A DNA stretch of 64,000 bases from the NCBI RefSeq assembly GCF_014673215.1, contig NZ_JACWMS010000002.1, positions 1,364,001 through 1,428,000 of the forward strand. Direction: 5' to 3'. Below the pieces are notes generated by a model, which was not told the DNA's origin, ran no database searches, and saw only the letters and a list, made by a program, of their open reading frames with translations. This stretch comes from Gordonia hankookensis (GTDB lineage Bacteria > Actinomycetota > Actinomycetes > Mycobacteriales > Mycobacteriaceae). Both the position numbers and the translations under genes were made by a program. Shown one piece after another: positions 1 to 19,609 of this stretch (position 1 is the stretch's first letter; every line of letters starts with the position of its first letter).

Positions 1-1254
1 GCACTGCTACGCCGAGACCTCCCTCGATTCAGGGATAACGGCCCGACAAATGGTGTGTTCGTCGACGACCTCAAAAACATGGCAAGCTGGGTGACCCAAC
101 TCGAGAACAGTTGCGTGGCGGTCCAGGGGCCACCGGGCACGGGCAAGACCTACAGTGCCGCACGCTTGATTCGGCAGCTGGTGCGCGCGGGGAAACGAGT
201 CGGAATCACCGCGGTCAGCCACCATGCGATTGGCAATGTGCTCGAGGCCGTGGTCGCCGCGTTCGCAGAGAGCGGCGAGCTCCCTCTGCTGACTGCTGTG
301 TGCAACCCCGGAGGCAGTTCGGTGCGGCGCTTGGCCGATGTGGCCTATTTCCGCGACAACAAGAAATGCGCAAAGGATGAGTTCAACGTGGTTGCCGGCA
401 CCACCTGGCTCTTCACCAACCAGGCGATGCGCGCCGCCCCGGTCGACGTGTTGCTGGTCGACGAGGCCGGACAACTCGCCCTCGCCGACGCCCTCGCCGC
501 TTCCACATCGGCCCGCAGCATGATCCTGCTCGGCGACCCGCTGCAGCTACCGCAAGTAGCACAGGCCAACCATCCGGGCATCTCCGGCCGCAGCGTGCTC
601 GAGCACATCGTCGGCGACGAGGTCACCCTCCCTGACGACAGAGGAGTCTTCTTACATCAGACTCGCCGTATGCATCCCGCACTGTGCCAGTTCCTCTCCG
701 AGCAGATCTACGACAACCGGTTGCTCAGCCACGACGACTGCGCCGGCCAGTCGACGGCTGCGGGGACCGGGTTGCGCTGGATACGTGCAGACCACCAGGG
801 CAACCGCACCTCCTCCGCGCAGGAAGCAGACCTCATCGCGGCGGAACTGTTGACGCTGATCGGCGCCGACTGGACCAATCAGAACGGGGAGACGAAACCA
901 CTTGAGGCGGAGGACTTCATGGTCGTGGCCCCTTTCAACGACCAGGTAACCACGATCCGTGCGCGGCTGGCGGAGGAGGCGGTCCTGTCGGACGTTCCGG
1001 TGGGGACGGTCGACAAGTTCCAAGGCCGTGAGGCGGCCGCAGTGTTCTTCAGCATGACCACTTCCAGCGGCGAAGACTTGACGCGTGGAGTGGACTTTCT
1101 GTTCTCCCGCAACAGACTCAACGTCGCGATAAGCCGCGCCCGCTGTCTGGCATACCTGGTCTGCACCGAGGAGCTTCTCAATACACGTGCTCGCACCGTC
1201 GAAGACATGAGGCTGATAGGCACGCTGAACGCTGTGGTCGAAGCGGCGGGGTAG
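1..1254 (+). CDS. Superfamily 1 DNA/RNA helicase, C-terminal part (5' end outside window)
   Basis: The frame is open from the first base, so the gene enters from the left and the GTG at 55 is internal. The visible part is the helicase core. Walker A is GPPGTGKT, Walker B is VDEAGQ, motif V is TVDKFQGRE and motif VI is LNVAISRAR near the C-terminus. This set and its spacing are typical of the Upf1/DNA2-like (AAA_11/AAA_12) branch of SF1, which unwinds nucleic acid using ATP. In actinobacteria such a core often follows an N-terminal RecB-like nuclease domain (TM0106 type). That would lie outside the window, so the full architecture is inference. The next gene on this strand is 620 bases away, so this gene ends its transcription unit. 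The helicase family is certain; the cellular role, repair or defence, is not. Confidence 0.85.
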   Translation, partial: ALLRRDLPRFRDNGPTNGVFVDDLKNMASWVTQLENSCVAVQGPPGTGKTYSAARLIRQLVRAGKRVGITAVSHHAIGNVLEAVVAAFAESGELPLLTAVCNPGGSSVRRLADVAYFRDNKKCAKDEFNVVAGTTWLFTNQAMRAAPVDVLLVDEAGQLALADALAASTSARSMILLGDPLQLPQVAQANHPGISGRSVLEHIVGDEVTLPDDRGVFLHQTRRMHPALCQFLSEQIYDNRLLSHDDCAGQSTAAGTGLRWIRADHQGNRTSSAQEADLIAAELLTLIGADWTNQNGETKPLEAEDFMVVAPFNDQVTTIRARLAEEAVLSDVPVGTVDKFQGREAAAVFFSMTTSSGEDLTRGVDFLFSRNRLNVAISRARCLAYLVCTEELLNTRARTVEDMRLIGTLNAVVEAAG

Positions 1255-1353
1255 TCGGTGCAGATCGCGAGCCGAACTCCGCGCCAGCGCGACCGTTGTA
1301 TCCCGACAGCCTGGTTTGCGTCACACTCGAAAGTCAGGGCGGTTGGCCGCTGC

Positions 1354-1530
1354 TCACTCTTCGTAGAGATCGGCAACTTCAGCGCGCCGCTTCGCCTCCT
1401 CCTCGGCGCGCAACTTCGCCGTCCGCAGGTGTGCGTATCTGCGCCCGTAGCTGTTCCGGTCCAGGCGGTCGGCAGGATTGTCGGGCTGGTCCGGTGGCGT
1501 GTTTTCGTCAGGTCCGTATCGACTAGTCAT
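1354..1530 (-). CDS. Small charged protein, 58 aa, unknown
   Basis: This short gene starts at ATG 1530 and ends at TGA 1354. A good ribosome binding site (GAGGG, seven bases before the ATG) precedes it. The product begins MTSRYGPDENTPPDQPDNPA. It then becomes a strongly charged helix rich in Arg, Glu and Ala (AKLRAEEEAKRRAE) and ends in DLYEE. There is no signal peptide, cysteine or membrane segment. The N-terminal third is Pro/Asp-rich and probably disordered. I recognise no family. Coding potential is supported by the Shine-Dalgarno site, the amphipathic C-terminal helix and the lack of any better frame here. It stands alone, convergent with the helicase gene and divergent from the hypothetical gene at 1874. 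Confidence 0.6.
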   Translation of the reverse strand: MTSRYGPDENTPPDQPDNPADRLDRNSYGRRYAHLRTAKLRAEEEAKRRAEVADLYEE

Positions 1531-1873
1531 TGTTCATCCCTCGTGCAGTTTGGGCTCGTCGTGTGCCGAGACGCAATCGTGATGATCGCGAGTGGCGGAG
1601 CTCCCTGTCCAGCAATTCGACAGAATCGACATGTCGACGGGCCGCCGGGGACGACAGCGACGGCCGGAGATGATCCTGGGCGACTTCCGCAGATGCCGCG
1701 GCTCGCTTCGCCCACGCGTCATATACTCAGCGCCGCGTGCGTCAAGGAAGGTGCTTCCGCCCCGGATTGTCCACGCGACAGGGTGAGGTTACGGAAAGTA
1801 CTCCCTCATAGGTAGACGTGATCGCGCTTGAGGGGCGACTCCGGGAACGCGACGGCAGTCAGATGGGAGACAC
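1531..1873. other. Non-coding stretch, nothing recognised
   Basis: No convincing gene is seen. Open frames here lack ribosome binding sites and have Arg/Pro-rich translations typical of chance frames in high-GC DNA. The stretch probably holds divergent promoters for the small gene at 1354-1530 and the gene at 1874. No repeat or hairpin stood out. Confidence 0.4.
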
Positions 1874-2311
1874 GTGGATATCGAATCGGAGTCAGAAACC
1901 GAACCGTGGGATGCCGACCCAGTTGACCAGCTTCCGCCGGTCATCGAGCCGGGACGGATCAGCCTGACTCTCTGGTCGGCGCCGTACTGGACAGACGAGA
2001 TGATGGCCTGGGATGTCGAGTTCTCGTGGACCGGCGGCCGCGAAGCCGAGTGGTACCAAGACATCAGCATGTCGACCGGCGGCCTCTCGGTCATGTCCAG
2101 TGCTCCCACGCATGGAACAGCGACCTGGGAGAACGGTCGAGATCTGCACCTCACCTACAGTTCAGCTGAACTTGATCTGGACGGCGAGGATGTGTTGAAA
2201 GGCGCCGCGCCGACCGCTGGACCGCCGGATTCGGACGAGGTGATGCGGTCACCGCAGGTCTGGGTGAAACTCGCCGAGACGGTGTTGGGTTTCGTTCACG
2301 GTCTCATGTAG
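1874..2311 (+). CDS. Hypothetical acidic protein, 145 aa
   Basis: The start is GTG 1874, giving an acidic N-terminus (MDIESESETEPWDADPVDQ). A segment rich in Trp and beta-prone residues follows (LTLWSAPYWTDEMMAWDVEFSWTGG), and the C-terminal part contains VWVKLAETVLGFV. No signal peptide, membrane helix or cysteine motif is present, so a soluble cytosolic protein is expected. I do not recognise the family. It stands alone; the next gene, mcrC, converges on it about 100 bases away. The amino-acid composition looks like a real protein. A later in-frame start cannot be excluded because the ribosome binding site before GTG 1874 is weak. Confidence 0.55.
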   Translation: MDIESESETEPWDADPVDQLPPVIEPGRISLTLWSAPYWTDEMMAWDVEFSWTGGREAEWYQDISMSTGGLSVMSSAPTHGTATWENGRDLHLTYSSAELDLDGEDVLKGAAPTAGPPDSDEVMRSPQVWVKLAETVLGFVHGLM

Positions 2312-2413
2312 TTCACTGCCTGAACGTTCGGCGACGGATGCTCTGCCGAAACTTGCTGACATGTAGTTGCTTGCAGGCGGATGTTCGCGCCGGATCGTCA
2401 AACCTGAGCCGGC

Positions 2414-3628
2414 CTAAGCCAATGTCGACGGTACGGTTCTGGAGCCCGCCGCCGCGGTAGCAATTACCTGACCGAGGTCCGAGAGCTCTTGCTCAACCTG
2501 CCCGGGAGAACCACTGAGGTCGAGCGACCTCAGAACCAGCCTCGTCCCGGCATGCCGGACGATGACAGTCCTGCTACCGTCTTCGTCGTTCTCGTGACGA
2601 CAGTAAATGAGCACGCCCTCGGGCAGGTCCAACGCCGTGGTGTAGGCGAGGAGTTGGTAGTAGTCCCCGCTTCGGCCGCGTCCGTCTTTGGCGAGCTTGT
2701 ACTTGATGTCGCCGACGTACAGCGGCTCGCCACGCGGGTTGCGGAACAGCAGATCCGGCATCATAGTCACCCGTCGCCCCGTACCCAGATGCACGATCGG
2801 CTCATCTATCACATCGAGACGCCCCCTCAGTTCGCGTCTCAAGCGTTCGGTGACGAAACGCTGGAAGAGGTCGTTCATGTCGATCATGAAGGACGATGCG
2901 GATGCGGTTCCCTGGGAGTCGGTGAGTGTGAGGTTTGCGAGGACGAGCCGGGCGAGTCCCAACGCGGGTGCATAGTGCTGGTTCAGACGGCTCAGTTGGA
3001 TGCGGTCGACGTCGTCGGGGGCGACTGTCTGGTCCGCGACTCCGTCGAGCGCCACGAGTTGACGCATCAATCGTTGTCGGTCGGTCGGATCGATCCGGGG
3101 AACGCGAAGTGCACGTTGGACTGCGGCCCGCAGAACCCGGTTCTCCGCGATGTCTTCGGTGAAGTCGTCGAACGTGCACGCCACCGGTGTGAGAACTCCC
3201 GCGCGCCGGAACTGCCGTGGCACGTCCAGTCGACCGCGCAGGGCAATCACGGTCTCTTCTACGGTCTTGTAGGACCGCAACACTCCGCGCGCCAGCGTTG
3301 TCTCGAGGGCCCGTGCAAAGAAGGCGATCACGGACGGAAGCAGATCTGATGAGACATCGTACTCGAATGCCTCTCGGCGCCAGGCATTGTGGGGAAGTCC
3401 TGGCTCTAGGAGCAGAAAGAGATTCTCAGGGTTGATCTTCGGGCGGATGAGCAATCGGATGTCACCTACGACCAGTGTTCCGACATACGATGTCGCCGTG
3501 ACGCGCCACCGAGCACCCGGTGCAGGCGTTACTGCGACGAAACCGGTCGATTGGAGAACCTCGGCTTGCGTGCGCGTCAGGTCGAGGTCTCGAAACTCAT
3601 ACTCCCTGAGGACCACTCCTGCATTCAT
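2414..3628 (-). CDS. mcrC: McrC, nuclease subunit of a McrBC-type modification-dependent restriction system
   Basis: McrC binds the McrB ring and cuts DNA carrying modified cytosines. The protein of 404 aa has an N-terminal beta-rich half and a central IAENRVLRAAVQRAL helix typical of McrC. The C-terminal nuclease has PD at 291-292 and D307-I-K309 in DIKYK, a full PD-(D/E)XK active site. I chose ATG 3628, whose A is also the last base of the mcrB stop (TGATG), so the two genes are translationally coupled. A start 72 bases further upstream would lie inside mcrB and adds only an Arg-rich segment. Family and catalytic residues are directly visible. The exact modified base recognised is unknown and depends on the N-terminal domain of McrB. 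Confidence 0.92.
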   Translation of the reverse strand: MNAGVVLREYEFRDLDLTRTQAEVLQSTGFVAVTPAPGARWRVTATSYVGTLVVGDIRLLIRPKINPENLFLLLEPGLPHNAWRREAFEYDVSSDLLPSVIAFFARALETTLARGVLRSYKTVEETVIALRGRLDVPRQFRRAGVLTPVACTFDDFTEDIAENRVLRAAVQRALRVPRIDPTDRQRLMRQLVALDGVADQTVAPDDVDRIQLSRLNQHYAPALGLARLVLANLTLTDSQGTASASSFMIDMNDLFQRFVTERLRRELRGRLDVIDEPIVHLGTGRRVTMMPDLLFRNPRGEPLYVGDIKYKLAKDGRGRSGDYYQLLAYTTALDLPEGVLIYCRHENDEDGSRTVIVRHAGTRLVLRSLDLSGSPGQVEQELSDLGQVIATAAAGSRTVPSTLA

Positions 3629-6381
3629 CAGATCTCCGGCTCGCCGCCGTCTGACATCTCGCCGATCGATTCGCCTGCCAAGTCGTTGAAGCGTTTCCAC
3701 ACCTGGTCGAATCGGAAGTAGTTGATCCGTGTGGCGTCGCCGAAGAACTGGTCCTCGATGAATGGTTCGACGTCATATACCCAGATGCGTTGCAAGGCAT
3801 CTTTGTCCAGCCCGCGCTTCATGAAGTGGCTCGGTCCGAGTTGCAGGTGAGGTCCACCGAGCTCACGCTCGAGCTCATCGTTGACCTGTGCGACCACGTC
3901 TCCCACCCAAGCCGGTTCACCTTCCCGCTCGAGCCAGCGAGCGAGCAGTCCAGCCATCGGACCGTGATTCGGAAAGAACGGGACGAAGTGAAATCGTCGT
4001 CGGAGTGCCGCGTCGACCAAGGCGATGGACCGATCGGCTGTATTCATCGTTCCGATGAACCAGATGTCTTTGGACAACTCGAACGGGTCGTCGGGGCGAT
4101 ACAGAGTTCGAACCGGAGTGTTTCGATACTCGAAGAGAAAGAGTAACTCGCCGAGCACCTTTGGCAGATTCGCGCGGTTGATCTCGTCGATGATCATGAG
4201 ATGGCGCCGCCCCGGCGCATCGTTGGCGCGGGCCGCAAGCTCGGCGAGCGGACCGCGCTGCAGTCGGTAGGTCATGAGGCCGTCAGCATCGGTCTCGGGT
4301 CGGTACCCCTCGAAGAAATCTTCGTACGAGGTCGACGGATGGAACTGGACGACAGGCCGACGTGCAGGGTCGGGGACCAGTGCCTCTGCCAGTTTGCGGG
4401 CAAAGTATGTCTTCCCAGTTCCGGGTGGGCCATAGAACACGACCTGCTTCTTGTCTTTGAGCAGTGCCACGATGTCGTCGACGAAGCTGCGGTCGACGAG
4501 CATCTGCTCAGCGAGATCGTCGAGAGGATCGACGACGGGCTCGAGGCTCGGACTCTGGTCGTGTTCGGCGTACCAGTATAGGAACGCGCCCATGCCGAGG
4601 GGATCACCGGGGAAGAAGCGGTCGAGTCGTGCGTGGAGAGCGTCGTTGGAAGCGACTTGAAGCTCGCCGCGTCCGGCCGCGTCCGGCGCCGCGATGCCCA
4701 TCAGCTTGAGCATCCGGAGCTTGCCCTTGGGGCCGGTGTACGGGTACACGGTAATGAACTTCTCCGGATGGGTGATAGCGAGCATCTTCATCATCACCGA
4801 CTCGCCGAACCCTCTGACCCGAAGGGTTTCGTCCTCCAGTGCCCGGTTGATTCGTATCGCCGGCGCGTCGTCTCCCCAACAGACGTATGAGAATGTGTCG
4901 ATGATGCGCTGATACTCGGTGTCGTCCGCATCACGGATGCTCTTGTTGAGCGTCGACATCGGGCCGGTACCGCCGTAGCGCTGTGTGTTCCAAATGGGAC
5001 GGAGGTCGGCGCGGTCGACAATTGACAGCTCCTCAGGATCAAGTAGCTGTGCAAAATCGCGACGATCTGCTTTGTCTTGTTCATGGCCGGGTGTCGGGTA
5101 GCCGGTCGCGGATTTGAACTCCGCCACTATGGCAGTCAAGCCGTCGTCGTTCGCATCCATGGTGGTGGTGTCACCGTTAAGTTCTGCCATGATCGGTGCG
5201 ATGTCGCGGGCTGCTTGGAGAACCTCAGCTCGTAGATCCAGCGATGGGAACGTCGACCGGTCGAACCAGCGCGCGTAGATCACTTCGCCTGTGCCGCCGC
5301 CGGTGAACCCGACGTCTCGGCCGACACGTGACCTTCCTGCGAGGACCTCGTAACCTTCCAGCGGATGGCTGTTGATCACTTCGACGGCGTGCTCGGTCGC
5401 TCCGGGTTGGGCATCGGGGAATGGGCGAAGTCCGACGGCAAGTCCGTTCGCGTTGAGCCAGAGTCGGAGCGACAGGCCGTAGGTGCCGGGTACGCGCCAA
5501 TCAGTCCAGAGATCGCCGCGTGGCCACACGGTATCCCACATCACGCCGGGGGTATGTGCCTTTAGGGTTCGTCCGGCGGCCTCGGCGACGGACGACTCGA
5601 GGGCGGAGCCGATGTGTTGTGCGACCGCTACCAAAGCGGCTGCGTTGTCCCGGTACAACTCCGGGTCGTCACCCCGGTTCTTCGCCCCTTCGCGGAGAGC
5701 GGCACGCTCGCAAAGGACTTCGTCGAGGAGAACCGGGCGCTCGTCCGCCCACCAGGCAGCCACCTGCTCGAAGCGGCGCGGGTCCCCGTCGATCTCTGTT
5801 GCGCACCGGAAGAGCTCAGCGTATCTCTCGCCCTGGTCGTCGAACTCCGAGTTCCCGGTCAGGTAGGTCATGTACTCGGCCGACTTCGGCCACGCCGCCG
5901 GCCATGCCGCCGAATCGTCGAGAGCCCAGTAGTAGGAGGCGACGAACGGTGCGCGTTTGGGGCTCGGGTGGGCGCCGACCCGAATCTCCTGGAGGTGGTC
6001 GGCGAGTAGACGGACCTTTCGAACGGCGTCGTCGAGGCCTTCAGGAGTCGACAGCGCGTCGAGCAGCACACTCACGGCGATGTCGGGGTCGGGCGACATC
6101 TTGTTGATCTGGTTGATGATCATCTGCCCGGCGGTACCGCTGTATCCGGATTCGAAGTTGCGTACCCAGCGATCGGTATCGGCTTGGAACTTGCTCAAAT
6201 CCCGAGACCGGCCGAGTGTCTCGAGGAACTGACGCGCTTCGGACGCATGCGGGGTGAGGCGCGCCTCTCTCCATGAGATGCGTGTCTCGTCACCTGCGGC
6301 GTTGAACCGGGCGACGTGTGCTCGGTGCCACCGCTGCCGAAGCTCGACCTCTCGCACGTCGATGTCCTCACGGTCGGTCAT
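3628..6381 (-). CDS. mcrB: McrB-type AAA+ GTPase subunit with large N-terminal region
   Basis: McrB forms a GTP-driven AAA+ ring that translocates on DNA and activates McrC. In this protein of 917 aa the motor occupies about residues 640-880. Walker A is GPPGTGKT at 651-658, Walker B is LMIIDEIN at 728-735, and TMNTADRS at 778-785 is the NTAD signature that gives McrB its GTP preference. About 620 residues precede the motor, far more than the roughly 160-residue DNA-reading domain of E. coli McrB. I do not recognise that region; it may hold the modified-base reader plus a helical scaffold. ATG 6381 has GGAGG six bases upstream. mcrC follows with a one-base overlap. The system is probably intact. 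The upstream flank carries a decayed helicase gene and another modified-DNA unit, suggesting a defence island. Confidence 0.9.
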   Translation of the reverse strand: MTDREDIDVREVELRQRWHRAHVARFNAAGDETRISWREARLTPHASEARQFLETLGRSRDLSKFQADTDRWVRNFESGYSGTAGQMIINQINKMSPDPDIAVSVLLDALSTPEGLDDAVRKVRLLADHLQEIRVGAHPSPKRAPFVASYYWALDDSAAWPAAWPKSAEYMTYLTGNSEFDDQGERYAELFRCATEIDGDPRRFEQVAAWWADERPVLLDEVLCERAALREGAKNRGDDPELYRDNAAALVAVAQHIGSALESSVAEAAGRTLKAHTPGVMWDTVWPRGDLWTDWRVPGTYGLSLRLWLNANGLAVGLRPFPDAQPGATEHAVEVINSHPLEGYEVLAGRSRVGRDVGFTGGGTGEVIYARWFDRSTFPSLDLRAEVLQAARDIAPIMAELNGDTTTMDANDDGLTAIVAEFKSATGYPTPGHEQDKADRRDFAQLLDPEELSIVDRADLRPIWNTQRYGGTGPMSTLNKSIRDADDTEYQRIIDTFSYVCWGDDAPAIRINRALEDETLRVRGFGESVMMKMLAITHPEKFITVYPYTGPKGKLRMLKLMGIAAPDAAGRGELQVASNDALHARLDRFFPGDPLGMGAFLYWYAEHDQSPSLEPVVDPLDDLAEQMLVDRSFVDDIVALLKDKKQVVFYGPPGTGKTYFARKLAEALVPDPARRPVVQFHPSTSYEDFFEGYRPETDADGLMTYRLQRGPLAELAARANDAPGRRHLMIIDEINRANLPKVLGELLFLFEYRNTPVRTLYRPDDPFELSKDIWFIGTMNTADRSIALVDAALRRRFHFVPFFPNHGPMAGLLARWLEREGEPAWVGDVVAQVNDELERELGGPHLQLGPSHFMKRGLDKDALQRIWVYDVEPFIEDQFFGDATRINYFRFDQVWKRFNDLAGESIGEMSDGGEPEI

Positions 6382-6531
6382 TGCTACCTCCTCGCCTCGT
6401 CGAGGGTAGCGATTCGCGCCAAGGCCTGAGATGGCTTTGCAATCGACGCGCGAGGCGCCGGGAGTTTGTGGACACGGTCGGCGTCGGCTTGACGTCGATG
6501 GTCGCCGAACCCGCTGCAGGGCGACGGTTAG

Positions 6532-7127
6532 CCGCCGAAATTCATCGATCCTGTCGACCGGGCACGCCAGGCCTGCTACGCATTACGCGACTATGTGGAA
6601 CTCGATCCCCGATGGACGCCAGGCCGAATCCGGTGGGACCACATGGTGGTGCTGCCACAATCGGAGATCCCCGCCGACTTCTCGCTGCCGGACTGTCCAC
6701 GCTGGAAGATCATCGACCGCAACCAGCTCGACCAGCTCATGCGGGTGCGGTTCATCGCCTGCGCCCCGACGAAGGCGCAGGATGCGGCGGATGACCAGAT
6801 CGACGTTCGGATGGCCCGAGGACATCGCACTCCTGACGACGGGGAGGCGTCATCCCGAGCAGGTCGAGCGGCAGGCCGAAGGCAACAAGTCTTACTGGGA
6901 TACCTTCTGGGACGAGGATCAGGTGTTCTATGGTCACGTCCTCGGTTTCAAACGTCTCGAGCGACGTGTCGTCGTGCTCGGGCTGAACGAGCCAAAGCCG
7001 CGAGATCGGTCGAAAGAGTGCTTGTATGTGGTACTTTCGCGTGCGCCAGATCAGCTCGTCGTGTGGAGATTAAGACTTTGTTCGACAGGTCGGGGGACCG
7101 GATGTTGCGAGGCGGTTGGGAGTCTGA
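6532..7127 (+). pseudogene. Remnant of a NERD-domain helicase gene (internal deletion, frameshifts, stop)
   Basis: Two separated pieces of one known architecture are visible. From about 6532 one frame encodes part of a NERD nuclease-like domain (PVDRARQACYALRDYVELD, then IRWDHMVVLP and DCPRWKIIDR). From about 6815 another frame encodes the extreme C-terminus of the helicase (WPEDIALLTTGRRHPEQVE, then YWDTFWDEDQVFYGHVLGFK and LYVVLSRAPDQLVV). Near 7060 the frame slips again: CGD, an in-frame TAA, then DFVRQVGGPDVARRL and the natural stop at 7125-7127. Hundreds of residues of the helicase motor are missing. In intact relatives NERD and a UvrD-like helicase form one protein, so this is a decayed gene. 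It lies between two modified-DNA units and probably records turnover in a defence island. Confidence 0.75.
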
Positions 7128-7212
7128 ATCGGGCTACCGGCCTGTTGTGCGCCGCTCGATTTGCAGCATCGCCGAGACCGAAACGCTACGCCATATTCGG
7201 TCCGTCCGTCGA

Positions 7213-9291
7213 TCACGCCGACCAGCCATCCTGACCGCGCAGGTCCGCACGAACAGTCTGTGGTTGCGAGTTCCGAAGAACCTGATCGGCTTCGTAGATG
7301 GTCACTTCGGGCTCGTCGCTCAGAGTATGTGTCACCACCGCGAGCTCCCACGCATCGTCATGCTCCGCGACCCGGCACTCGTTGGCTGTGAGCAGCACTA
7401 TCGGTAATGACCCACTCACTCCTTTGACCTCGACGTGCCACTCCTCGCCCGCAGGGGTCGTGACCGTGAGATCCCAACCCATGTTGAAGGTGTGGACGTC
7501 GTCTACCGCTGCCTGCCAGTGGGTCTCGTAGTACTGCGTGACCGCGTCCATCGCCGCTTGTTCGACGAGTGCGTTGTTCTTGGGTGAGCCGAATGCTGCA
7601 CCGTATGGGCCGAGGGTCACGGTGGTCAGCGGGACGTCATCCGGCGCAGGCCATGGCGGCAACAGCGGCTCGAGTGCGGCCAGCTGAGACCGAGAGATCC
7701 AGGAGGGATTGGAGCCCTGGGGGACGGTGAAGACCTCAAGGTCGGAGAGATCGGGAACAGCGGCGATGTCGCCGGCGCGGAGACGGTCGGGCTCGTCGAG
7801 AATTCGAATTGCGGTTGGAACTATGTGGCGAACCCGAGCGGCGTGGTCATCGTCCTTCCAGTAGCCACCGCCGAGACCACTGGTTTCGTAACTGCCGCCG
7901 GTCGTCCATCCGATACCCCAGATTCCGCGAGGCGCGGAGCCGTCTCGGGTGCCGGACATCCACAGGATCGCTCTCTGTCCGGCAGTGATCATCTGCGAGC
8001 GGTAGTTGTCGGCGACGCTCCACCCGTCAACGAACGATTCTCCGTCGGCAATCTCAGCAGGCAGATCGTAGATGTCGGGATTGCACTTGAATACCCAAGC
8101 ACCCAAATCATGCTCGGTGACTGCGCGATTGGTCATTCGGGACTCCGTACTCTGAGATTGTGGCGTAGCCGGTTGTTGAGGTCTGGTCGGCGATGACACA
8201 CCGCCACCAACCTGGCTCATCCAGGTGTGCGGGTCATCTGATCGGAGTGTGCTCGGATCGATGGAGTACGTGCGACCGTCGTCCCCGAACAGCTCGTGCA
8301 CGACTCCAGGACCCCAGGCCGAACTGCTGCTGACCTGCCGAGGCAAGTACTCACCGACGATGATGCGCCCGGGTTCGGTAACGCGCGAGAACGGCCGGTA
8401 TACGCCCGGTGGAGCGGTGGCAATACGTGCACGAACCCCTGTGACAGTGTGTTCGGACGGTAGCGGTTGATAGGCTTCGTCGTCCTCGGTCCATGTGTAA
8501 TCGCATTCGCCGCATCGGTATTCAGGTGTGAACGGAGACGTAATTACACAACCGGCGATATCGGTGCCGGGGCCAGGCGGTCCCGCGGGCATACCCCAGA
8601 TCACCTGGAAGGTCCGTGTCGCCGAGCAACTTGGGCACAGCGGTCGGAACCCGAACATCACGTCGTCAGCCCCCGGAGCCAACGGACGGTGCAAGCGGTC
8701 GTGGCACGATGCGCAGACGGTGAGCGGCCCGGTCCCGAAGAAGTCCTGTTCCAGATCATCGACGAGCGCGTGCAGTTCCCACTCGGCTGCGTCGTATGGG
8801 TGTTCTCCACAGCATGCGCACGGTGCCCAACTGTCCGGACCCGGCCAGTCGGCCACCTCGGCGAGGCAGCCGCGTTCGTCGAGTTCGCGCCAGGGTGTCG
8901 GATCCGACGCCTCTGCATTGATCGCCTGGATCAACCGTTCGCCGAGTTCCTGCTCGAGAGTGGCGGTTCCGGCCGGGAGTGTGGTGGCAAGCCGGGCTTC
9001 GATCGAGGCGATCGACAGACCGAAGTCGAACGGCCCCATATAGGTGTGTTCGTCGGAGCGTGTTGCGTTCGAGGCGGTCTCGGATTCCTCGACGACGATG
9101 ATCGCCGGTGTGTGGCTGTCAGTCGTGACAACAACAAATAGATCGCCGGCGTCCCACCGTTCGGGAAAGCCGAATCGCAAGTCGTGTATCTCGACATCGT
9201 CGTCGGGGTTGAAATAGCAGTCGACTGCTTGCTGCCACGGTGTAGCCGTGACCAGGTGGACGCGGCTGATGAGCTTCGGGGAGTCGGTCAT
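7213..9291 (-). CDS. Multidomain modified-DNA protein: HNH-like zinc motif, EVE domain, DUF3883 nuclease-like domain
   Basis: This protein has 692 aa. Residues 1-140 are unrecognised. At 158-200 the pattern CACCGEHPYD...CASCHDRLH resembles the zinc-binding part of HNH/McrA-type nucleases. A second pair, LCPSC at 218-222 and CGEC at 260-263, looks like a zinc ribbon. At 397-500 is an EVE (PUA-like) domain starting AWVFKCNPDIYDL with GIWGIG; EVE domains bind modified cytosines. The end, 575-680, matches DUF3883, with MGWDLTV...HVEVKG; D...EVK is the expected PD-(D/E)XK-like core. The start ATG 9291 shares its A with the stop of the HhH gene upstream (TGATG), so the pair is coupled. The inferred role is recognition and cleavage of DNA carrying modified bases, beside McrBC. 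Domain calls are from visible motifs; substrate and activity are inferred. Confidence 0.78.
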   Translation of the reverse strand: MTDSPKLISRVHLVTATPWQQAVDCYFNPDDDVEIHDLRFGFPERWDAGDLFVVVTTDSHTPAIIVVEESETASNATRSDEHTYMGPFDFGLSIASIEARLATTLPAGTATLEQELGERLIQAINAEASDPTPWRELDERGCLAEVADWPGPDSWAPCACCGEHPYDAAEWELHALVDDLEQDFFGTGPLTVCASCHDRLHRPLAPGADDVMFGFRPLCPSCSATRTFQVIWGMPAGPPGPGTDIAGCVITSPFTPEYRCGECDYTWTEDDEAYQPLPSEHTVTGVRARIATAPPGVYRPFSRVTEPGRIIVGEYLPRQVSSSSAWGPGVVHELFGDDGRTYSIDPSTLRSDDPHTWMSQVGGGVSSPTRPQQPATPQSQSTESRMTNRAVTEHDLGAWVFKCNPDIYDLPAEIADGESFVDGWSVADNYRSQMITAGQRAILWMSGTRDGSAPRGIWGIGWTTGGSYETSGLGGGYWKDDDHAARVRHIVPTAIRILDEPDRLRAGDIAAVPDLSDLEVFTVPQGSNPSWISRSQLAALEPLLPPWPAPDDVPLTTVTLGPYGAAFGSPKNNALVEQAAMDAVTQYYETHWQAAVDDVHTFNMGWDLTVTTPAGEEWHVEVKGVSGSLPIVLLTANECRVAEHDDAWELAVVTHTLSDEPEVTIYEADQVLRNSQPQTVRADLRGQDGWSA

Positions 9292-15811: not shown

Positions 15812-16118
15812 GGGAGGAAACGCCGAACTTCAGGCACGACCAACCGTCTGGTGGTTCGCTCCGGAGGTCGCGTTCGGCATCGCGATCGTTGTCAGCGTGT
15901 CGTTTCAGCAAACAGTTTGCCGAGACAGCCTTGTCCCGCCGGTGATCGCGCTCCTGGCACTCGCTGGGGTGGGACCGCTTGCGTGGCTTGATCAGTCATG
16001 TCGTCGTGAGTTCGGATCGATTGCTCGCGCTGGCATCTGGATCGCGGCGACCTCGTCTTTGGTGGTGGAGGTGCTGATCCCGCTGGGGCTGGTGATGTGC
16101 GGTTTCAGCGAGCTTTGA
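15810..16118 (+). pseudogene. Membrane protein remnant without a usable start
   Basis: The frame ending at 16118 contains WWFAPEVAFGIAIVVSV, SLVPPVIALLALAGVGPLAW and AGIWIAATSSLVVEVLIPLG, three clear membrane helices. No ATG, GTG or TTG with a ribosome binding site stands at its beginning. A good candidate start, GTG at about 15808 (GTGAGGGAGGAA), lies in another frame, so a further frameshift near 15830 is likely. Together with the preceding gene this makes two adjacent broken membrane genes. The function is unknown. Confidence 0.4.
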
Positions 16119-16179
16119 GGTTCGGAGAATGCCAGCGAGTACTGTCCGCGCGGTCTGGCATTCTCGACGATCGGCACTC

Positions 16180-18024
16180 TCAACTCTGCTTTCGAGGAAA
16201 GTCGATGGGCCAGCACCAGATTCTTGCACCCTCCTCCGTCAGTCGAGTGTGCTCATTGACGCGGATCAGAAGGTCTGCGTCGTGGCTCCGCCGCACCCGG
16301 TACGCAAAGCCCCCATGAGGCGAGAGCCCCGCCAGAGGCGGGAGATTCGGATCGAACTCGACCACGAGGTTCTCGTCGTCCAGCTTTCGCCACCAGGATC
16401 GAAGTCTCTTGAGTGCGTCGGCGCTCATGCCCTTCCCCGAAGTCGCCATGTACTCACCATGATCACGAAGCCTTCGGCACGGCACCGACTTGCCGTGGCC
16501 GCTCGTCGTCTGCCACGGCCAGCTCTTGTTGACAATCTGACGTGGTGACAGCTGGGCGTCGTAGGTCTTCAAGTGCCACGAAACGGCCTGTCGGGTTACA
16601 CCAAACATTGCCGCTATCTGAGATTGGTTGTAGCCCTTGGTCTTCAACTCCTCGATCACAGCTTTGCTCAGCCCGCCTTTGCAGTTGCTCGGCAGATCAA
16701 CCTCGCTGCACACAGTGCTCTGATCGAACGGACTGCAGACCCAACCCGCGACGACCGCGAGACGACTGGGTCGATGCACTGCGAGGAAGCCGAATGGACG
16801 CTCGAAACTGACCTCAGCAACCTTGATCGCGTACCGGTCCCGGCTGGGCGCGCCGGTGGGCATGAGAGCAAACGCAGAGACGGCGGCGGCCTCGAACCCG
16901 CCACTGTAGAACCGTGCCAACACACTCTGTGCGCCGCGAGAGACGTATAGCGGGACGGCACTCAGCAAGGGAAGGTGTGACGTGGCCGGGTTTGTCACGG
17001 ACTGCAACCCGAAGAGGTCGGTGTAGTCCAGCAGGTCGTGCCGGGAATTGATGTCAAACGCAGGGAGGCGCAGCCGAAGCTGATTCTCCGGGGTGCTCGC
17101 CTGTACCTCCTTGACCGTCAGGCCGGGGGCATCACCGACGAAATCGCTCGCTAGGTCGACCTGGGCCTCACCCGCCAGTTCTCGCAACCCGGCGGATAGC
17201 ACGTCGCCCGCTGGGAGTGCGCCAACGAGTAAGTGGACGTCGACGTCGCCGTCTCCCTCCACCACAACTCGAGTCACGCCGCCGTCGAGAACAGCGGCAG
17301 TCTTGATTTCGGGCGTGGTGCGGTCGAGCCAGTGCTGCTCGGGGGCGTCTCCGTCATCGTCGTGTCGTTTGCGTTGATAGCTGTCGAACGGCGTACGCCA
17401 TTGCACCCGTGTGACCAGAGCAGAGGCCATCACGAGTTTGCTCTGGGGGCTGACGTCGAGGGGGAAGCGACGGATGAGCCCGTCTGTCTGGTCGGCTGCC
17501 CACTGATCGAGCGGCGCCTGTTCGGTCAGCTGACCGAACACACCCTCAGGTAGCTGCGATGTCCACTCGTCACGTAGCGGGATTCCGTTGCGTGCCCAGA
17601 TGCCGACAGCGGCGTTGGTCGAGGAGCCCGACCTGAGAATGTCGACCAGTTCAAGCGCGTCACGTTGGGCGGAATCTGACGGGCGCTCGATCGCTTCGGC
17701 AAGTTCAGTGCTCGCCGGTTCATCGGCAGCTGAGGCAAGGAGTGCCAGCAGTGGCCAGACTCCGGCCCCCGAAACGACGTAGTCGTCATCAGACTGGGAC
17801 GCGCACCAACGAGCGGTCAGCGTATTCACCGCAGCAACGACCGGGCTGATCCGCGGCGAGTGTGTCGAGTCGGCCGAAGGTGCCGAGTCGCGGCGTGCCT
17901 CTTCCGACAGAGCTTGCGAGGGGTGAGACAGTTCAGGACCGTGCTCGATGATCGTGTCCGACAGACTTTGTCGGTGTGCATTGCGCATGGCCGGAATCAT
18001 TACATGAGCAGGTGACACTGACAC
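16180..18024 (-). CDS. Serpin-fold protein fused to a C-terminal helix-turn-helix domain, 614 aa
   Basis: Residues 58-431 show serpin hallmarks in order: AVNTLTARW...VVSGAGVWPLLALLAS (helix A/B region), KLVMASALVTRVQWRTPFD (strand 3A region), GGFEAAAVSAF at 375-385, which matches the reactive-loop hinge of inhibitory serpins, and FERPFGFLAVHRPSRLAVVAGWVCSP at the C-terminus. Serpins trap serine or cysteine proteases. After residue 445 the same frame continues into a second domain: GYNQSQIAAMFGVTRQAVSWHLK at 464-486 is a helix-turn-helix, followed by RLRDHGEYMATSGKGMSADA and SWWRKLDDENLVVEFDPNLP, the layout of a known stand-alone actinobacterial regulator. No signal peptide is present, so it is cytosolic. 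The GTG start at 18024 is uncertain, as no strong ribosome binding site is seen. The fusion is visible; a protease-sensing regulator is inference. Confidence 0.75.
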   Translation of the reverse strand: MSVSPAHVMIPAMRNAHRQSLSDTIIEHGPELSHPSQALSEEARRDSAPSADSTHSPRISPVVAAVNTLTARWCASQSDDDYVVSGAGVWPLLALLASAADEPASTELAEAIERPSDSAQRDALELVDILRSGSSTNAAVGIWARNGIPLRDEWTSQLPEGVFGQLTEQAPLDQWAADQTDGLIRRFPLDVSPQSKLVMASALVTRVQWRTPFDSYQRKRHDDDGDAPEQHWLDRTTPEIKTAAVLDGGVTRVVVEGDGDVDVHLLVGALPAGDVLSAGLRELAGEAQVDLASDFVGDAPGLTVKEVQASTPENQLRLRLPAFDINSRHDLLDYTDLFGLQSVTNPATSHLPLLSAVPLYVSRGAQSVLARFYSGGFEAAAVSAFALMPTGAPSRDRYAIKVAEVSFERPFGFLAVHRPSRLAVVAGWVCSPFDQSTVCSEVDLPSNCKGGLSKAVIEELKTKGYNQSQIAAMFGVTRQAVSWHLKTYDAQLSPRQIVNKSWPWQTTSGHGKSVPCRRLRDHGEYMATSGKGMSADALKRLRSWWRKLDDENLVVEFDPNLPPLAGLSPHGGFAYRVRRSHDADLLIRVNEHTRLTEEGARIWCWPIDFPRKQS

Positions 18025-18229
18025 GACGTCATGTGCAATTCGCTCGGCAGGTTCAAGAGCTGTCCAGTCCTAGCAGGCGTGACGATTTCAAGGAGTGAAG
18101 GGCAGCCGCCTGGGGCGTCCATTGATCGCCAGGCGTTGCCAACGGCTGGTCCGCAGGAGCACGAGGTAAGTAGTGTGCGTAGCCAATTGGTACGAGTGGG
18201 CTACAGACATCGCCGCTGAGCTGTCGCTA

Positions 18230-19609
18230 ATGTCCGGTTTCGTGTCTCCTTACCGGCGCTTGGCCGTGGCCGCCGCCATCGGCGTGATTGGTGCAACGTT
18301 CGTCGCGTGTGGTTCAAGTGATGGGATGCCAGGGACGACCTCGGCGTCGAATTCAGCTGTCGCAACGAGTCCGACGCCCACGGTGGTAGTGCTTGATGCA
18401 TCGGATTCGATGAACACAGACGACGCGCCGGGTCTGCGCATCGATGCCGCGAAATCGGCGGTGACCGCGCTGGTGGACTCGCTGCCGGACACCGCAAAGA
18501 TCGGGGTGACCGTGTTCGGTGGAAGCGTCCCATCCGAGCGGGGCCCGAGAAGGGGCTGCACTGATGTGCAGACTGTGTCGCAGTTGGCGGCGCTCGACAC
18601 TCGGGATCCGCGACCCGAGATCGCCGCGGTGACGGCTCAGGGATGGTCGCCGGTAGGCGGTGCGTTGCTGGCGGCTGCCCAACCTCTGGCAGGTGCAGAG
18701 GGGGCAATTGTCCTTGTCTCCGACGGAGAAGCAACTTGTCCGCCAGATCCATGCGTGACCGCCGAGCAGATCCGGTCAGCGAATCCAGAAATCACGATCA
18801 GTGCGATCGGACTGAAGACGGACTCCGAGCAACTCCGTTGCATCGCGAATGCCGGAGGTGGAGTGTTCGTCACGGCTGATAACACCGAACAGTTGACAGC
18901 ACGATTGTCTACGGTGCAGTCCGTCGACGCAGCGGAAAGCCTGAGTGCCGAGGGGCTGTACGGCATATCGCTGGGAGAGTCGCTCGGCGACATTCAGAAG
19001 TCTCATGCCGACTTCCCGTCCGGAGGCGGGGCGGCAGTGGTCGAGTGGCGAGAGTGCAGATGGCACTTCGAAGGCGGGACTCTGACGCAGATCGAGCCGA
19101 TCAACGATACCGTGACCATCGACGGCGTGAGGCGTGGAACGCCGATGTCACGGCTTGTGGAACTCTTCGGCGCACCGATCCAGGTCGATGAAACCGTCAA
19201 GCGTGCGTACTTCACCGCAAATGAGGCACTGGGAACAGCGTTCGTGGTCGACTACGACGGCGACACAAGCAACGGGACGGTACGCGCGATCAGCCTCTGT
19301 AAGTGCCTGCCGGAACAGAAGACTCCGGAACTCACGGCGCCGGTGCAGGAGAAGAACTGCGGCCCCACAGCCGCTTTCCCGAAACTGCGGGTCATCTCTT
19401 CCGGCGTGAGCTGTCAGGAGGGCCTGCGTCTGATCGAGAGGTACGTGGCCGATCCGAGGACCCAGGCCGGCGACCGGGGTGCGCAGGTAGGCGAATGGGC
19501 GTGCAACATTTTCGGCGCAGCGCAGACAGATGCCGGTGAGCCCGTCGTGAAGTGTGAACGCCCAGACGGGGCAACCGTCGACGTGCGAGCTCCACGTGCT
19601 CCCGGCTGA
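18230..19609 (+). CDS. VWA-domain lipoprotein
   Basis: The start ATG 18230 gives MSGFVSPYRRLAVAAAIGVI...FVAC, a lipoprotein signal with the cysteine at 27. An upstream start at 18173 would place extra residues before the signal and is unlikely. A short Ser/Thr linker leads to a von Willebrand factor A domain: VVVLDASDSM holds the metal site D56-x-S58-x-S60, with VTVFGG and IVLVSDGEATCP further on. The C-terminal about 220 residues have paired cysteines (RECRW, CKCLPEQ, NCGPT, SCQEG, WACNIF, VKCER), consistent with an extracytoplasmic domain. The role may be adhesion or assembly of a surface complex; there is no operon partner to say which. The cutinase gene follows after 107 bases on the same strand. 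Confidence 0.75.
   Translation: MSGFVSPYRRLAVAAAIGVIGATFVACGSSDGMPGTTSASNSAVATSPTPTVVVLDASDSMNTDDAPGLRIDAAKSAVTALVDSLPDTAKIGVTVFGGSVPSERGPRRGCTDVQTVSQLAALDTRDPRPEIAAVTAQGWSPVGGALLAAAQPLAGAEGAIVLVSDGEATCPPDPCVTAEQIRSANPEITISAIGLKTDSEQLRCIANAGGGVFVTADNTEQLTARLSTVQSVDAAESLSAEGLYGISLGESLGDIQKSHADFPSGGGAAVVEWRECRWHFEGGTLTQIEPINDTVTIDGVRRGTPMSRLVELFGAPIQVDETVKRAYFTANEALGTAFVVDYDGDTSNGTVRAISLCKCLPEQKTPELTAPVQEKNCGPTAAFPKLRVISSGVSCQEGLRLIERYVADPRTQAGDRGAQVGEWACNIFGAAQTDAGEPVVKCERPDGATVDVRAPRAPG

Follow-up and report, generated by a model that had tools for sequence, protein, structure and literature searches.

The repressors of cluster A phages are monomers composed of a helix-turn-helix (HTH) domain, a helix bridge and a stoperator domain, and bind a 13-bp asymmetric site; the HTH and stoperator domains must be covalently linked for DNA binding, trypsin and chymotrypsin cut preferentially at the bridge, and cleavage of the bridge by proteases is put forward as a lysis switch (sections of PMC9283540). 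According to the same sections, mutation of R45, W50, D104 or R108 in the L5 repressor abolishes immunity or nearly so, and mutation of K81 has an intermediate effect. Cluster A-like immunity systems are also noted in phages of Gordonia, Rhodococcus and Streptomyces (an excerpt of PMC6550527). In the 11 phage copies whose annotation we inspected, L5-type repressors are stand-alone genes of 113–192 aa.

In classical inhibitory serpins, P15 is Gly, P14 is Thr or Ser and P12–P9 are small residues. Thermopin (PDB 1SNG and 1MTP) and conserpin (5CDX) are listed as serpins alone. Prokaryotic serpins mostly carry N-terminal transport peptides, and their functions are obscure (sections of PMC8233489).

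The window (the whole 64,000-nucleotide stretch of Gordonia hankookensis DNA that was analysed) contains a gene in which both kinds of domain are encoded in one reading frame. Its features are as follows.

16180..18024, (-) strand: serpin-repressor fusion gene in full (614 codons and a stop), read from a GTG; which start codon is used is uncertain
17851..18024, (-) strand: N-terminal ~58 residues preceding the serpin core; start uncertain
16723..17850, (-) strand: serpin domain, residues 59–434 (PF00079, 3.6e-17); 62% identity to the stand-alone serpin of the congeneric genome G041
16870..16902, (-) strand: hinge of the serpin reactive-centre loop, GGFEAAAVSAF, residues 375–385
16672..16722, (-) strand: linker, residues 435–451; in-frame GTG at residue 438, close to the start of the Nedarya repressor
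16561..16671, (-) strand: repressor HTH domain, residues 452–488; L5 R45 = residue 478, W50 = residue 483
16504..16560, (-) strand: equivalent of the helix bridge (L5 residues 56–74), residues 489–507, from the 7R6R alignment, with boundaries from the sections of PMC9283540 cited above
16207..16503, (-) strand: stoperator domain, residues 508–606; L5 D104 = residue 536, R108 = residue 540

The first-pass annotation had read a serpin and a DNA-binding domain in one frame, and this stands: one uninterrupted frame, 614 codons long, spans 16180–18024 of the (-) strand, with the serpin at about residues 59–434, a linker of about 17 residues and the repressor at about 450–608. The frame stays open for 15 codons upstream of the GTG at 18024, giving 629 aa, and ATG codons that might serve as starts lie at residues 9 and 13. 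Upstream of the repressor it is open for 455 residues, compared to at most 163 at 75 viral repressor genes; because of this length, and because the serpin within it shares 62% identity with a stand-alone serpin, we consider the fusion to be more than a chance open frame. A simple scan of 15900–18300 found no sigma70-like promoter, and the junction between serpin and repressor holds no terminator-like site and has an unremarkable RNA fold (z -1.11). Single-sequence structure prediction for residues 9–614 (mean pLDDT 34, pTM 0.22) was too poor to carry any conclusion. The fusion and the identity of its parts are nevertheless well supported by the matches described below.

The C-terminal half can be assigned firmly, on its profile and residue matches, as an L5/cluster A immunity repressor. 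It matches the PHROGs family phrog_357, 'transcriptional repressor', over profile positions 10–168 of 170 (E 1.4e-73), and its sole PDB match at E 0.001 is the TipsytheTRex repressor (7R6R; E 5.8e-55, 166 residues aligned). HTH and stoperator domains are both present in the one chain, as expected of this repressor type. When L5 residues are numbered as the 7R6R chain minus 20, which we checked against the residues named in the sections of PMC9283540, the equivalents of R45, W50, D104 and R108 are all identical in the fusion; the K81 position is Val, as it is in the Nedarya repressor. The TipsytheTRex protein (7R6R, 7TZ1) shares HTH domain, helix bridge, stoperator domain and the immunity-essential residues with the fusion. 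The regulator-like DNA-binding region of the first-pass annotation is complete and its HTH real, but this half is an L5/cluster A phage immunity repressor (phrog_357, 7R6R) and not a generic regulator: matches of the HTH in Pfam and NCBIfam are weak (best 0.00016, below cut-off), and the generic candidates (HTH_28, MarR, ArsR, sigma-r4) fell below those cut-offs and were superseded by phrog_357.

Matches to the repressor half occur in 1082 of 50,697 phage records (1011 from Mycobacterium phages, 44 from Rhodococcus phages, 26 from Gordonia phages and one Fromanvirus). The highest identity among the phage matches listed is 65%, to gp79 of Gordonia phage Nedarya (Soupsvirus; residues 24–181 of the query fragment), which lies in the same starred four-row clade as the fusion repressor. 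Nedarya gp79 is a free repressor, and the phage carries ParAB and repeated stoperator-like sites across its genome. The repressor in the window differs from the L5-type phage copies in being host-borne, without phage neighbours and placed behind a serpin. Among the ten neighbouring ORFs we found no phage structural or replication families (PHROGs), the only phage-family match being a cutinase-like protein that hits an endolysin family, and the host genome has a single phrog_357 copy. We derived the Nedarya stoperator by k-mer counting as GGGGATWGTCAAG. Sites of this type with up to two mismatches number two in the window against 1.93 expected, and those with one mismatch number three in the 5.2 Mb genome against six for a reversed control. 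As these counts are at or below control, the targets of the repressor are not in the chromosome, unless its own site differs from that of Nedarya. A phage-encoded repressor with many stoperators in its own replicon was thus not what we found, assuming a Nedarya-type site (another site sequence is possible), and we rejected a prophage remnant on the lack of phage genes beside the fusion and of any excess of Nedarya-type stoperators. The 200 bp ahead of the fusion gene hold two TCAAG stoperator-like half-sites, at 18053 and 18088 on the (+) strand, compared to 0.24 expected on both strands; the motif is only 5 bp long and the count was made after seeing the sequence, and the half-sites are possible operators.

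The serpin half is matched by PF00079 with 63.1 bits (E 3.6e-17, cut-off 27) in two stretches, profile positions 13–176 and 250–370, and qualifies as a member of the serpin superfamily by profile; serpins in the PDB, including thermopin and conserpin, also match it by sequence. The hinge GGFEAAAVSAF at residues 375–385, which had been described as inhibitory in type, is confirmed as a sequence and looks inhibitory but for one position: P15 is Gly, P12–P10 are Ala and P9 is Val, and P14 is Phe rather than the classical Thr or Ser. The AAAV(S/T) run is conserved in the local serpin family, and P14 is Phe in 34 of 40 rows and Thr in one, with five of the 40 missed by the search pattern; in alignments, thermopin has Ala and conserpin Thr at this position. 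A Phe at P14 is atypical for inhibitory serpins and, as judged from sequence, would count against a reading based on inhibition. Judged by eye on the translation, the fusion protein has no signal peptide, as the first-pass annotation had noted. This cannot be taken as a special feature of the fusion, since the translated stand-alone relatives show none by eye either.

The nearest relatives of this serpin, within the same bacterial family, are the stand-alone serpins of G041 (62% identical to it) and G748, which group with it at 100/100 in a tree of 40 rows, share its hinge, and end just past the serpin fold without a DNA-binding domain (as seen in the translation of G041 and the frame length of G748). 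Over 374 codons, the fusion serpin and that of G041 differ by dN 0.28 and dS 1.05 (dN/dS 0.27). Between the repressor half and the Nedarya or Rhodococcus plasmid copy, the rate of difference at third codon positions is about double that at first and second positions, and dS is saturated. Third positions are the most variable in both domains, which suggests that constraint acts on each half, although it may predate the fusion. Carriage of the serpin by phages was rejected, since none of 50,697 phage records matched it at E 0.01.

The two halves occur together in only one of 59 genomes of the genus, that of the fusion itself. Elsewhere in this survey, G041 has the close stand-alone serpin, only the repressor is matched in G005 and G040 (partially in G040), and G025 and G056 have weaker matches. 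Repressors of the phrog_357 family were found in 22/401 genomes of the family, 18/397 of the order, 22/297 of genus g29, 14/148 of genus g22 and 2/138 of the class; most genome sets are even, overlapping samples of larger groups, and three of these phrog_357 sets include the genome of the fusion itself. By hand count among the matches listed in four of these five sets there are 38 different full-length host-borne copies (profile coverage beginning no later than position 12 and reaching at least 164, partial copies omitted, one with an internal stop). Of these, just two are part of an open frame longer than 350 aa, the fusion in the window (629) and a protein of G461 (655), and both of these frames contain serpins. 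That homologues always keep the two domains in separate genes, the finding that the first-pass annotation thought would tell against a true fusion, comes close to what we observe, with 36 of the 38 listed host copies outside serpin frames, but the G461 fusion is an exception.

G461 belongs to the same family and to genus g29, and its 655-aa open frame encodes the same two kinds of domain in the same order. Its serpin belongs to another clade and has an N-terminal Cys-rich segment, and its repressor is nearest to other g29 copies. By Pfam alone the G461 serpin scores 17.8 bits, below the cut-off, so the assignment rests on its 73% identity to the stand-alone serpin of G276; the repressor half is a phrog_357 member (8.6e-69). 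Frame and key residues are intact in both fusions. Among eight neighbours of the G461 fusion there is no phage structural gene, and the PHROG matches there are to enzyme families or families of unknown function.

We compared the two fusions in trees of repressor domains of at least 140 residues (41 rows) and serpin domains of at least 300 residues (40 rows), using one copy of each and leaving three long-branch repressor rows out of the AU run. The G461 serpin groups with the stand-alone serpins of G276 and G479 (97/95), far from that of the window, and forcing the two fusion serpins into one clade costs 406 log units (AU test, p=5.6e-5). The fusion repressor of the window clusters with those of two Gordonia phages and one Rhodococcus plasmid (99/97; 97/97 in the AU-run tree), and the two fusion repressors fall apart with AU p=0.022, less firmly than the serpins. 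Shared ancestry of the two fusions is thus rejected for the serpin part and weakly for the repressor part. Given serpins from different clades and repressors that are separated less firmly, the fusion probably arose twice independently, and the simplest account is that a resident serpin was joined to a locally available repressor on two separate occasions. As a rough inference, had the second partner been picked at random out of several thousand genes, it would rarely have been another serpin.

A second joined match to the fusion protein was found in none of 201 relatives, and no further fusion was found with the G461 protein in 198 and 148 genomes (partly overlapping sets), so that the constraint seen in each half need not reflect selection on the fusion itself. 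We found no plasmid-borne fusion in 72,556 plasmid records and excluded one on that basis, and a scan of viral contigs and GTDB r220 contigs with six short peptide patterns, which is insensitive, also found none. Shorter N-terminal extensions of repressors were observed in other settings. The host repressors of G865 and G742 (L096 and L097, genus g29) share an N-terminal extra of about 100 aa, without a Pfam match in the case of G865. A plasmid repressor of Rhodococcus pyridinivorans has an annotated N-domain of PF25687 (Mycobacteriophage Gene 3; 2.1e-12) in one strain, the domain being absent in another (L053 9656–10483; L155 2977–3483). We considered these extensions as a wider theme and dropped it, since PF25687 is unannotated in the second strain and upstream frames reach up to 163 residues at viral copies; a single clade of extended repressor copies was likewise rejected (p 0.038).

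Both fusions lie among genes of defence type. To the left of the fusion in the window are an AAA helicase with Mokosh-like similarity (MkoA, 2.4e-44), McrBC genes and a NOV_C protein; the Mokosh-like helicase, a partial gene at the window edge, and McrBC together occupy window positions 55–6381. Two further features of the window are listed here.

2414..6381, (-) strand: McrBC-type restriction genes (McrC 2414–3700, PF10117 4.1e-50; AAA partner 3628–6381, PF07728 6.3e-21)
6410..7404, (+) strand: NERD-helicase gene remnant, broken across two frames; the G041 serpin has an unbroken homologue next to it in divergent orientation

The neighbours of the G461 fusion include a NERD fragment, a GmrSD-N/DUF262 gene (PDC-M55C, 6e-59), a Nudix NrtR-like regulator, a metallophosphatase, an ADP-ribosylglycohydrolase and an acyl-CoA synthetase-like gene. 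NERD-helicase homologues were found in 4 of 18 serpin loci, namely as remnants at both fusion loci and unbroken beside one close stand-alone relative of each (window 6410–7404; L089 6147–6608; L034 10605–12302; L139 5958–7751), and in none of 7 repressor-only loci; the comparison covered 40 kb of the window and at most 20 kb of each other locus. Serpin and NERD-helicase may form an undescribed defence unit. The resemblance of both fusion loci to defence islands is suggestive, judged on these loci alone. Among described defence proteins (PADLOC), the fusion has only a weak HTH match (E 0.0081) and the G461 protein none. In three genomes (L089 11727–14981; L139; L141), genes for a Nudix NrtR-like regulator and an ADP-ribosylglycohydrolase are found close to serpins of the G461 clade, hinting at a link with NAD/ADP-ribose metabolism.

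From what is known of its repressor half, the fusion is likely to act against phages. We tentatively propose, with a little less than even confidence, that it is a host-domesticated superinfection-immunity protein directed at cluster A-like phages, in which the serpin guards the repressor in cis. An L5/cluster A repressor copy on the chromosome would have become fused, in frame, to the end of a resident gene for a cytosolic serpin. By homology, the repressor half would bind the operators and stoperators of an incoming cluster A-like phage and stop its early transcription; with less certainty, the serpin half may trap in cis any serine proteases that, left free, would cleave the helix bridge, and so keep immunity from being turned off by proteolysis. 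The published protease sensitivity of the bridge fits a guard better than a sensor. Counting against a guard, the internal GTG at residue 438 could yield a free repressor, making the fusion irrelevant. It is a more doubtful extension of this proposal that serpin-guarded immunity repressors constitute a new kind of host defence, captured repeatedly and armed with a suicide protease inhibitor against out-competition and proteolysis.

Along the lines of the one-shot protease sensor suggested in the first-pass annotation, the protein might be a protease-triggered switch: cleavage of the serpin loop or trapping of a protease would alter the conformation or fate of the attached repressor and free the DNA, and the fusion would thereby signal protease activity in infected or stressed cells. 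The conserved AAAV(S/T) hinge run, the absence of an evident signal sequence, and the position of the repressor C-terminal to the serpin, through which loop insertion could be transmitted, are all compatible with this. However, it is not evident why a host should let go of its anti-phage repression, and no host regulon sites were found for the Nedarya motif. In classical serpins, moreover, the C-terminal peptide stays bound after loop cleavage, and the linker therefore need not be released. We consider a switch of this kind quite unlikely. Re-targeting of the repressor to chromosomal sites as a host transcription regulator, with the serpin supplying the regulation, has in our view only a slim chance of being correct: self-regulation could follow from the two TCAAG half-sites, present at well above expectation, but that test was post hoc on a 5-bp motif, and there is no genome-wide excess of the Nedarya-type site.

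The junction might instead be neutral, an old phage repressor relic having been joined behind a serpin by chance deletion or recombination, with little or no joint function. Such an origin would be in keeping with the rarity of the fusion (1/59 genomes of the genus), with the scatter of host-borne repressors (e.g. 22/401 genomes of the family), and with the NERD-helicase remnants at both fusion loci, which point to local decay. Against it, the same pair of partners is joined in another genus, the two frames longer than 350 aa among the 38 listed full-length host copies both contain serpins, and frame and key residues have remained intact in both; we regard neutrality as unlikely. On the sequence evidence it is also very unlikely that serpin and repressor are in truth separate genes and that the stop codon of the serpin was lost through an error of sequencing or assembly. 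The serpin of the closest relative does end six codons past a shared SPFD motif, exactly at the position of the join. However, separate genes would require a frame accident and would still leave the repressor directly behind the serpin, the join has no promoter- or terminator-like site, and the second fusion lies in a single-contig genome (G461).

We know of no job for actinobacterial cytosolic serpins, and the fusion would provide one if either the guard or the sensor reading were true. With the same proviso, it would bear on the inactivation of cluster A repressors, for which bridge proteolysis is a published suggestion only, and would show that hosts had adopted an immunity protein of phages and equipped it with a protease guard. 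No title listed by our literature searches points to a serpin fused with a phage repressor, and no paper combining 'serpin' and 'immunity repressor' came up (most subscription journals were outside their scope); the words 'fusion', 'multidomain' and 'additional domain' are absent from the serpin phylogeny PMC8233489. The serpin-repressor fusion is thus real and recurrent, and was not found in print by these searches.

Two further L5-type repressors were observed in the course of the survey. Phage DLane (L162, NC_042317.1; Cheoctovirus), which we take not to be a cluster A phage, carries one near a gene noted as AttP. The 51-kb Mycobacterium intracellulare 'plasmid' pM018 (L154, NZ_AP024256.1) encodes a phage tail protein and a PD-(D/E)XK nuclease as well as an L5-type repressor, and is probably an extrachromosomal cluster A-like prophage.
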